This document shows positions 25,337-28,332 of a stretch of 51,566 nt of DNA, piece by piece. The stretch covers positions 1 to 51,566 of the forward strand of contig JAFGSS010000018.1 in assembly GCA_016934555.1 (NCBI GenBank), given 5' to 3'. A program made the translations under genes and the position numbers. Source of the stretch: Acidobacteriota bacterium (lineage in GTDB: Bacteria; Acidobacteriota; UBA6911). The notes under the pieces are model-generated. The model saw nothing but the letters and a program-made list of their open reading frames with translations. It did not search any database and was not told the DNA's origin. Position 1 is the stretch's first letter. Each line of letters opens with the position of its first letter.

Positions 25337-26488
25337 ATGTTTGTCGACTGCATCGAACAGGGTCCCATCCGCCCCCCGAGCGAGGCCGCGAGCCTGCTGC
25401 TGCGGGTCACGCGCCATTGCCCGTGGAACCGCTGCGAGTTCTGCCACATTTACAGGGGCCGGCGCTTTGAACCCCGGAAGGCGGAGGAGGTCAAGCGGGA
25501 CATCGACACCCTGCGGGACCTTGCCTCCCGGATCCGGGACCTGTCCCTGCAACGGGGATTCGGAGGAACCATTCACGCCGCGCTGGCCCGGCACCTCGGC
25601 GACACCCCACGGCCGTATCCGGAAGGGGCCCGGAACCTCCTCTTCTGGATGGCGGGCGGCGCCCGGAACGTCTTTCTCCAGGATGCCGACAACCTGGCAC
25701 TGAAGACCGAGAAGCTGGTGGATATCCTCAGGTATCTCAGGGACGCCTTCCCCACCGTGGAAAGGATCACCACCTACGCCCGGTCGGCCACCCTGGCCCG
25801 GAAAAGCCCCGAAGAGCTCGCGGCCCTCCGCGAGGCTGGGCTGTCACGCATCCACACGGGCATGGAATCGGGTTGCGACACGATCCTGGCCCGCGTTCAG
25901 AAAGGGGTGACGGCGCGGGTCCTCATCGATGCCGGGAGGAAGGTGAAGCAGGCGGGGCTGGGCCTTTCGGAATACGTCATGCCGGGACTCGGAGGGAAAG
26001 CCCTGACGCGGGAACATGCCCTGGAAACCGCCAGGGCGCTCAACGAGATCGATCCCGACTTCATCCGGGTCCGCCCGCTGAAGGTCCTCTCCACCATGCC
26101 CCTTTTCCGGAGGGTGGAATCGGGCGAGATGGAGCTCCTCGGCGACGACGGGATCCTCGCCGAGGAGAGGCTCCTCATCGGGCACCTGGACCGGTTCACC
26201 GGCCGGCTCGAGAGCGATCACGTCCTGAACCTGCTCGAGGAGGTGGAAGGACGGTTCCCTGCAGCCCGCCGCCCCGTCCTCGCCCTTATCGACCGGTACC
26301 TGGCCCTGCCGGAAGGGGAGCGCGCCCACTTCCGGCTCGGCCGTCGCACCGGATTCTACCGCCGGCTCGCCGACCGGGAGAACCCCGTCCTCCGGGCCGA
26401 GGTGGCCGCCATCCTGCGCCGGGTCGAATCGGGCGATCCCGGGGGTCTCGACCTTTACCTCTCCCGGCAAACGGAATCGTTCATCTAG
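25337..26488 (+). CDS. Radical SAM protein with CX4CX2C cluster motif
   Basis: Radical S-adenosylmethionine enzyme of unknown substrate. The 383-residue protein has C28, C33 and C36 (HCPWNRCEFC). This CX4CX2C spacing differs by one residue from the classical CX3CX2C but is accompanied by a standard radical SAM barrel: ITTYARSATL, the HTGMESG strand, EYVMPGLGG, and LKVLSTMPLF. The barrel resembles the Elp3/HemN-like branch in outline. The start is the first ATG after the phosphoesterase stop, 48 bp away. No additional C-terminal cluster cysteines were found. The neighbours do not reveal its role. Confidence 0.8.
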   Translation: MFVDCIEQGPIRPPSEAASLLLRVTRHCPWNRCEFCHIYRGRRFEPRKAEEVKRDIDTLRDLASRIRDLSLQRGFGGTIHAALARHLGDTPRPYPEGARNLLFWMAGGARNVFLQDADNLALKTEKLVDILRYLRDAFPTVERITTYARSATLARKSPEELAALREAGLSRIHTGMESGCDTILARVQKGVTARVLIDAGRKVKQAGLGLSEYVMPGLGGKALTREHALETARALNEIDPDFIRVRPLKVLSTMPLFRRVESGEMELLGDDGILAEERLLIGHLDRFTGRLESDHVLNLLEEVEGRFPAARRPVLALIDRYLALPEGERAHFRLGRRTGFYRRLADRENPVLRAEVAAILRRVESGDPGGLDLYLSRQTESFI

Positions 26489-26592
26489 CGTGAAGGGAAC
26501 GAAGGCCGCCGGAAACCGCCCGCCCCTCTTTCCAATTGCAAACGGCCCCGCGCTGTGGCAACGTAAACGGGTAGGGGGATTTTCAGGGGAAA

Positions 26593-26667
26593 TGATGCAT
26601 CCAGACCGCACCGCAGTCACACGCATCGCCATTATCAACATTACCGGGGGGACGCCCGGCGGATAGA
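26593..26667 (+). CDS. cimA leader peptide (isoleucine-rich)
   Basis: A 24-codon frame with tandem ATG codons; the second, at 26596, is better spaced from AGGGG. Residues 12-17 read IAIINI, giving four isoleucines in six positions, preceded by Thr and Val codons. The peptide ends in GGTPGG and a TAG at 26665. Its likely role is to report charged tRNA-Ile to the attenuator rather than to act as a protein. It lies 25 bp before the terminator stem and about 100 bp before cimA. Confidence 0.8.
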
Positions 26668-26691
26668 GGCCTGTAAAGGTGCATGCACCCA

Positions 26692-26728
26692 GCCCTCATC
26701 CGCCGAACGGGTGAGGGCTTTTTTTTTT
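26692..26728 (+). terminator. Attenuator terminator upstream of cimA
   Basis: An 11-bp stem (26692-26702 with 26710-26720, one G-U pair), a 7-nt loop, and nine consecutive Ts at 26720-26728. This is the strongest intrinsic terminator in the window. It lies 41 bp before the cimA start, with no complete gene ending just upstream except the leader peptide. Confidence 0.92.
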
Positions 26729-26769
26729 GGCCCGGCGCGCGCTGGCGCCGCGGACCCACGGAGGCAGGC

Positions 26770-28332
26770 GTGAAAATATTCGTTTACGACACCACCCTGA
26801 GGGACGGGACCCAGGGGGAAAGCGTGGCCTTCTCGGTGCAGGACAAGCTGAGGGTGGCGCGAAAACTGGACGAACTGGGGATCCACTATATCGAGGGGGG
26901 GTGGCCCGGCTCCAACGAAAAGGATGCCGAATTCTTCAGGATCGCCGCCGGCCAGAGCTGGCGGACGGCCAAAATCGCCGCCTTCGGCAGCACCGCCCTG
27001 GCCCGGAACCAGCCGAGCGAGGACCCGAACCTCGGGGCGCTGCTCGAGGCCGGGACCCCCGTGGTCACCATCTTCGGGAAGACATGGGACTTCCACGTGC
27101 ACGCGGCCCTGAGGATCCCCCTGGCCCGGAACTGCGAACTGATCCAGGCCTCGGTCGCCTACCTCAAATCCAGGGGCCGGGAGGTGATCTTCGACGCCGA
27201 ACACTTTTTCGACGGCTTCGGCGCCAACCCCGAATACGCGCTGGAGACCCTCCGCGCCGCGGCCGAGGGGGGAGCGGACCTGATCACCCTGTGCGACACC
27301 AACGGGGGTTCCCTCCCTTCCCGCATTAGGGAGGCCGTCGGCCGGGTCCAGGCGGTGGTCGGGCTGCCGCTCGGCATCCACTGCCACAACGATTCCGAGC
27401 TCGCGGTCGCCAACACCCTCGCCGCGGTGGAATGCGGCGCCGTCCAGGTCCAGGGGACCATGAACGGCTACGGGGAACGGTGCGGAAACGCGAACCTCTG
27501 CTCCATCATCCCCAATCTCGAACTGAAGATGGGAATGACCGTCATCGGCGAAAAACGGCTCCAGCTTCTCACCAGCGCCTCCCGGTTCGTCAGCCAGATC
27601 GCCAACCTGCGGCACCGCAAGGATCTCGCCTTCGTCGGGGAGAGCGCCTTCGCCCACAAGGGGGGGGTCCACGTCAGCGCCGTCATCCGGGATGCCGCCA
27701 CGTACGAGCATGTCGTCCCCGAGAAAGTCGGGAACGTGCGCCGCGTCCTGGTCTCGGAGCTCTCCGGCAGGAGCAACCTCCTGTTCAAGGCCCGGGAGAT
27801 GAAGCTCGACATCGCCGAACAGGAGGAGAAGCTGAAACCCGCCCTCAGCCGGATCAAGAAGCTGGAGAGCCAGGGATACGAATTCGAGGCGGCGGAGGCC
27901 TCCGTGCGCGTGCTGCTGGAAACGGCCATCAACGGCGAACGGGAGTTCTTCAGGATCGACAATTTCCGCGTGTTCACCGACATGCACCGGAGCGGGGAGG
28001 TGACGTCCGAGGCCACGGTGAAGGTGCGCGTGGGGGATCAGTCCGTGCACACGGTGGCCGAGGGGGACGGTCCCGTGCATGCCCTGGACAAGGCCCTGCG
28101 CCTCGCCCTGAACCAGTTCTTCGAACCGCTGCGTTCGGTCGCGCTCATCGACTACAAGGTCCGGGTCCTGACCGGGACGCACGGCACGGGCTCGCGGGTG
28201 CGCGTGCACATCCAGCAGACGGACGGGGAGGAAACCTGGACGACCGTGGGGGTGTCGGAAAACATCCTGGAAGCGAGCTACATCGCCCTGGCCGACGGGA
28301 TCCGCTACAAACTCCTGCAGACGATGGGCTGA
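26770..28332 (+). CDS. cimA: (R)-citramalate synthase
   Basis: Condenses pyruvate and acetyl-CoA to citramalate, the entry to threonine-independent isoleucine synthesis. The GTG start at 26770 has GGAGG five bases before it. The 520 residues begin with DTTLRDGTQGESVAFSVQDK, the catalytic HMG-CoA-lyase-like barrel, and carry the metal site GIHCHNDSELA and the GNANL segment. The C-terminal LeuA-type regulatory domain fits the citramalate synthase subgroup more than 2-isopropylmalate synthase. Feedback by isoleucine on that domain is expected from the family. An isoleucine-rich leader and attenuator upstream independently support the pathway assignment. The gene ends 10 bp from a convergent TolC-like gene. 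Confidence 0.92.
   Translation: MKIFVYDTTLRDGTQGESVAFSVQDKLRVARKLDELGIHYIEGGWPGSNEKDAEFFRIAAGQSWRTAKIAAFGSTALARNQPSEDPNLGALLEAGTPVVTIFGKTWDFHVHAALRIPLARNCELIQASVAYLKSRGREVIFDAEHFFDGFGANPEYALETLRAAAEGGADLITLCDTNGGSLPSRIREAVGRVQAVVGLPLGIHCHNDSELAVANTLAAVECGAVQVQGTMNGYGERCGNANLCSIIPNLELKMGMTVIGEKRLQLLTSASRFVSQIANLRHRKDLAFVGESAFAHKGGVHVSAVIRDAATYEHVVPEKVGNVRRVLVSELSGRSNLLFKAREMKLDIAEQEEKLKPALSRIKKLESQGYEFEAAEASVRVLLETAINGEREFFRIDNFRVFTDMHRSGEVTSEATVKVRVGDQSVHTVAEGDGPVHALDKALRLALNQFFEPLRSVALIDYKVRVLTGTHGTGSRVRVHIQQTDGEETWTTVGVSENILEASYIALADGIRYKLLQTMG

Follow-up and report, generated by a model that had tools for sequence, protein, structure and literature searches.

What controls the expression of citramalate synthase in a bacterium that seems to rely on this enzyme for its isoleucine? 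The question is raised by a locus in the window, as we call the whole stretch of acidobacterial DNA that was analysed (51,566 nucleotides). The source genome is a draft in 233 contigs. A short isoleucine-rich reading frame and an intrinsic terminator precede the gene cimA, and all features of the window described here lie on the + strand unless stated otherwise. The gene (26770–28332) has a GTG start, is preceded by a GGAGG ribosome binding site (26760–26764) and encodes 520 amino acids. That it encodes (R)-citramalate synthase, as the initial annotation had claimed, was confirmed by a profile search: the product scored 711.5 bits against the TIGR00977 equivalog, with a cut-off of 450, and remained far under the cut-offs of the 2-isopropylmalate synthase models. 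A radical-SAM-like gene (25337–26488) precedes the leader on the same strand as cimA, and the gene 3' of cimA is on the opposite strand.

A model search of the source genome for threonine dehydratase at E ≤ 1e-40 found none; the same model gave matches in 10 of 14 control genomes. Because no threonine dehydratase was found, the citramalate route seems, judged by gene content, to be the sole entry into isoleucine in this genome. Citramalate synthase, the first enzyme here that is specific to isoleucine, feeds this amino acid only, and an isoleucine-only signal is therefore to be expected in its control region. In three genomes of the same genus (G001, G007 and G009) neither a full-length citramalate synthase nor a threonine dehydratase match was found, which may reflect either gaps in the drafts or isoleucine auxotrophy.

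The leader has a ribosome binding site, AGGGG (26585–26589), followed by the frame MHPDRTAVTRIAIINITGGTPGG (26595–26666), which ends with the TAG stop codon and has Ile-rich homologues in 11 other genomes. The second of two ATG codons, at 26595, is the likelier start, since its spacing from AGGGG is better than that of the ATG at 26592, which is short, and since the first ATG is absent from the relative G006. Four of six codons (26625–26642) specify isoleucine: ATC at 26625, ATT at 26631, ATC at 26634 and ATT at 26640. The last of these (26640–26642) precedes the stop by exactly seven codons. ATG frames with at least four Ile in six codons arose in 0 of 20,000 dinucleotide shuffles of 26487–26769, and the leader is the sole short frame with this property in the whole window, both strands included. 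The ribosome site and the frame with four Ile codons in six had been noticed in the initial annotation and are indeed present, offset by about one base. The same holds for its coordinates in general: the features stand, but most positions had to be moved by about one base, the stop codon lying at 26664–26666 and not at 26665–26667.

Beyond the Ile codons, the RNA is predicted to fold in mutually exclusive ways. The sequence CCGGG(N6)CCCGG (26644–26659) can form a 1:2 protector hairpin of 5 bp, pairing 26644–26648 with 26655–26659. This hairpin, an addition to the features of the initial annotation, is predicted in the window, has 78% of cells paired among nine aligned sequences and is not kept in every relative. 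The 5' arm of the antiterminator (region 2, 26657–26669) includes the leader stop codon, as had been proposed, and its 3' arm (region 3, 26694–26705) is shared with the 5' arm of the terminator. There are 12 pairs, 26657–26664 and 26666–26669 with 26694–26705, and A26665 is bulged. This is the 12-bp pairing with one bulged A first placed at 26658–26670 and 26695–26706; among 1000 shuffles of the leader segment, one did as well. Within the antiterminator loop a small hairpin, GGTG/CACC (26678–26689), folds, and its sequence is largely conserved in the genus. The intrinsic terminator (26691–26728) sits between the leader frame and cimA. It consists of a 12-bp stem (26691–26702 with 26708–26719), a loop (26703–26707) and a run of 10 T residues (26719–26728); it had been recognized before at 26692–26728, with a tail counted as nine T.

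A conserved pattern suggests a promoter upstream of the leader. The putative -35 element, TTGCAA (26536–26541), recurs upstream of related leaders, and the putative -10 element, CAACGT (26559–26564), follows an extended -10 TGG (26556–26558). TTGCAA or TTTACA, a spacing of 17–18 nt and TGG-CANNNT are common to the regions upstream of the cimA leaders and of a pheA leader described below. The -10 hexamer of this promoter-like pattern (26530–26570 in the window, and the equivalent site in relatives) is unusual. A promoter consensus scan of the leader region called no promoter.

We are highly confident that the element would act as a ribosome-mediated transcription attenuator coupling isoleucine supply to citramalate synthase. 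The course of events that we infer, from promoter to ribosome to isoleucine response, is as follows. Transcription would start near 26570. When Ile-tRNA is sufficient, the ribosome would pass the Ile codons, reach the stop at 26664 and cover the 5' arm of the antiterminator; the nascent RNA would then fold into the terminator and transcription would end near 26728, giving a leader RNA of roughly 155 nt. Under a shortage of Ile-tRNA, the ribosome would stall at 26625–26642 with its edge just before 26657, leaving the antiterminator arm free. The free arm would pair with 26694–26705 before the 3' arm of the terminator is made, and polymerase would continue into cimA. In an untranslated leader the 1:2 hairpin and the terminator would form, so that the default state would be off. 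That the position of the ribosome selects between terminator and antiterminator had been suggested in the initial annotation, and the suggestion is supported by the predicted folds and by conservation.

The predicted folds were examined with the ribosome masking different parts of the leader. When the ribosome occupies the last Ile codon, so that the RNA is free from 26650 or 26653 onwards, the window RNA has the antiterminator as its lowest-energy fold. For a ribosome at earlier Ile codons, it is found in the partial transcript, before the 3' arm of the terminator exists. The terminator forms when the ribosome is placed at the stop codon. In the ribosome-free leader stretch (fold from 26635) the minimum combines the 1:2 hairpin and the terminator, and the fold of the whole leader contains the terminator. 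Folding was also carried out on 21 elements, comprising 12 before cimA, 8 before ilvN and 1 before pheA. In every one of the 21, the partial transcript has the terminator's 5' arm paired with upstream sequence, with shuffles as good in 0–30 of 1000, values which are not independent between relatives, and the terminator re-forms with the ribosome at the stop in 21/21. When the ribosome is stalled at the last Ile, the complete terminator persists in the full-length minimum of 8 of the 12 cimA elements, and the minimum of a ninth, that of G004, keeps part of it; the antiterminator must therefore win in these by forming first. In classical attenuators the antiterminator is likewise believed to win by the timing of its formation.

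Fifteen genomes of the order were sampled; cimA was found in ten, and the upstream DNA was readable in nine. Each of the nine readable loci, that of the window included, has a leader rich in Ile together with antiterminator and terminator. Examples of these leaders, each followed by its stop codon, are MVQRTAYTFFNIAIISISGISPGG, MAQRTITHIGIAIIIITGVSPGG, MMKSFEITGIAIAGKPPGG, MIRAANISIAIIIPRSAPGG and MFAQIGIIIIAISSPPPGG. The relative G006 has a CimA 88% identical to that of the window. When 26 further regions upstream of acidobacterial cimA genes were searched, the device was found only in family f83 (3/3), which lies outside the window's class and whose CimA is 61–64% identical. Leaders of f83 end with AIIIRSIILPGSGSG and similar sequences, the antiterminator has 17–18 bp, and the sequences of both antiterminator and terminator are different. 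Clusters of Ile codons thus occur in all 12 cimA elements, nine from the order and three from f83, representing two classes, and from the last Ile codon of each cluster to the stop the distance is always exactly seven codons, f83 again included. Conservation of the leader frame and of the alternative pairing in relatives had been named beforehand as the test on which the reading would stand or fall; when it was run, both were found in 9/9 and 3/3 loci. In a CimA tree, f83 groups with the window's family (support 90/92), and other families of the window's class are placed elsewhere. This topology is consistent with a shared origin of leader and gene in f83 and the window's family, possibly by transfer. 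Three loci of family f8, of the same class (L014, L018 and L022), have the Ile-rich frames FIIPIGIIIPAAGI, GIGIIIISTTIPSAGF and EIGVIIISTIIPSAGF upstream of cimA, each closed by a stop codon, with a hairpin arrangement that differs from that of the window.

In the alignment of nine sequences, 100% of the terminator cells are paired. For the antiterminator the figure is 88%, as against 39–52% when the arms are slid by 1–3 columns. Covariation is modest, and shuffle controls often reach the same level, because most helix positions are invariant. The initial annotation had asked for covarying arms, and some compensatory changes were found. G004 has C-G in place of a U-A pair of the terminator, and G-C in place of the antiterminator A-U that shares its middle base; in G006 another antiterminator A-U has become G-C. 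The strongest evidence for the predicted pairing is its survival through wholesale sequence replacement in the f83 and ilvN leaders.

Within the order the leader peptide nearly always ends in PGG or AGG, as would be seen if the peptide arrested the ribosome by its own sequence, through nascent-peptide sensing of a signal other than Ile-tRNA. This is very unlikely. The codons involved, GGC GGA TAG (or with GGG or TAA), lie within the antiterminator arm in the order's leaders; the f83 peptide ends in GSGSG before its stop, yet the pairing is kept; and the Ile codons are conserved through synonymous ATT, ATC and ATA changes, with their neighbours changing. It might also be argued that the terminator only ends the radical-SAM-like gene, which is on the same strand and stops about 200 bases ahead of it, and that the Ile frame and the pairing are coincidental. 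Such a coincidence is extremely unlikely, given that no shuffle yielded a frame of this kind, that 12 genomes from two classes have retained the frame with its Ile cluster, the spacing and both pairings, and that the device also precedes ilvN and pheA. A T-box, riboswitch or protein-bound leader sensing isoleucine or tRNA directly, for which T-boxes that control leuA-type synthases (COG0119) of Bacillota set a precedent (PMC12452182), is hardly credible in a leader that has only about 120 nt ahead of the terminator, occupied by the reading frame, and no Rfam match at gathering score.

The ribosome-mediated cimA attenuator is very probably real. The classical attenuators of enterobacteria are those of trp, his, leu, thr, ilvGMEDA and ilvBN. 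Like these, the cimA element combines a short translated leader rich in codons for the end product with an antiterminator and a terminator that exclude each other, and its intrinsic terminator stands ahead of a biosynthetic gene; the 1:2 protector hairpin of the classical systems is predicted in the window. Unlike them, it would control an isoleucine-only gene, with Ile as the sole over-represented regulatory codon; its antiterminator arm sits within the final codons and the stop of the leader, at a fixed seven codons from the last Ile; it matches no Rfam model; and it belongs to the phylum Acidobacteriota. Attenuation by a leader peptide is reported to have been predicted or tested for actinobacterial ilvBNC and leuA (PMC1262725, PMC11857589, PMC10272879). 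Such systems share with the cimA element leader-peptide attenuation of branched-chain genes outside Proteobacteria, and they are set apart by gene and phylum. The Bacillota T-box (PMC12452182) has in common with the cimA element the control of COG0119 enzymes at the RNA level by amino-acid supply, but binds uncharged tRNA directly, and the cimA leader has no T-box match.

A scan of the window with Rfam 15, amino-acid leaders and T-box included, gave no match at gathering score. At E ≤ 1 only sub-threshold NsiR1 and HTH-XRE matches appeared, the former sitting on the terminator, and a scan of 16 cimA loci from other phyla gave neither a T-box nor another element. The open-access literature yielded no described cimA attenuator, although a prediction may be contained in Lopatovskaya et al., 2010 (PubMed 20198868); these searches bear out the earlier statement that no described example was known for this gene. 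A 2010 survey states that functions have been assigned to almost none of the attenuators predicted in acidobacteria. The cimA attenuator is apparently new in its gene and in its phylum; the mechanism is classical. If the reading is true, the citramalate pathway would gain its first known attenuator, and Acidobacteriota one of their first attenuators with an assigned function.

An RNA model built from the nine cimA elements was used to search genomes for related elements. They precede ilvN in several of the family's genomes, the source genome included, and pheA in G014. The ilvN leader of the source genome, MGASGRNRSNHSIDTLKNTSLPVTVGIVPIISNVLTGVLRFG followed by a stop codon (L148, G000:C12:8106-11609), is rich in Val, Ile and Leu; its antiterminator includes the stop codon, and a terminator is present. 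Leaders of this type are kept before ilvN in at least seven relatives. The leader upstream of pheA (L121, G014:C436) is Phe-rich, with FSTFAFGFF, and has the antiterminator/terminator design and promoter type of the cimA leaders. Of the model matches below about 22 bits that were inspected, most either fell within coding sequence or consisted of a terminator alone. There is a fitting logic in these leaders: ilvN, a shared gene, carries mixed branched-chain codons, and the cimA leader is Ile-only. Acidobacteriota probably have a recurrent leader-peptide attenuation design, with Ile before cimA in two classes, Val/Ile/Leu before ilvN and Phe before pheA. In this design the antiterminator arm would be formed by the final leader codons together with the stop, at a fixed distance of seven codons from the last conserved regulatory codon (cimA and ilvN). 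With so fixed a geometry, searching further genomes for such elements is easy, and a reporter test is readily available.

When the regions upstream of 80 cimA homologues from many phyla were tested for four Ile in eight residues, nothing convincing was found; the genuine leader of G006 (L032), with three Ile in eight, fails this test as well. One locus of BRC1/Sumerlaeota (L052) has the short frame MTGLTAYSIFISCGIIIGPPQVR, with its stop codon, about 260 to 188 bases upstream of cimA, which may be an independent Ile leader in another phylum, and an Ile-rich short frame was also seen in L096, among the same upstream regions. In the source genome a Leu-rich short frame lies upstream of leuA (L002, G000:C75, minus strand), where no T-run terminator was found. 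Further Leu-rich frames without a T-run terminator lie upstream of leuA in L030, L175, L176, L178 and L179; RCDAIFHLRILRLKVRLNLPRP is one of these leuA frames, and control in all these cases is perhaps Rho-dependent or translational. In G025 a short frame with LIILVIITSGS (L224:5566-5697) lies upstream of ilvN, which is itself upstream of cimA, and is a possible branched-chain leader of ilvN.
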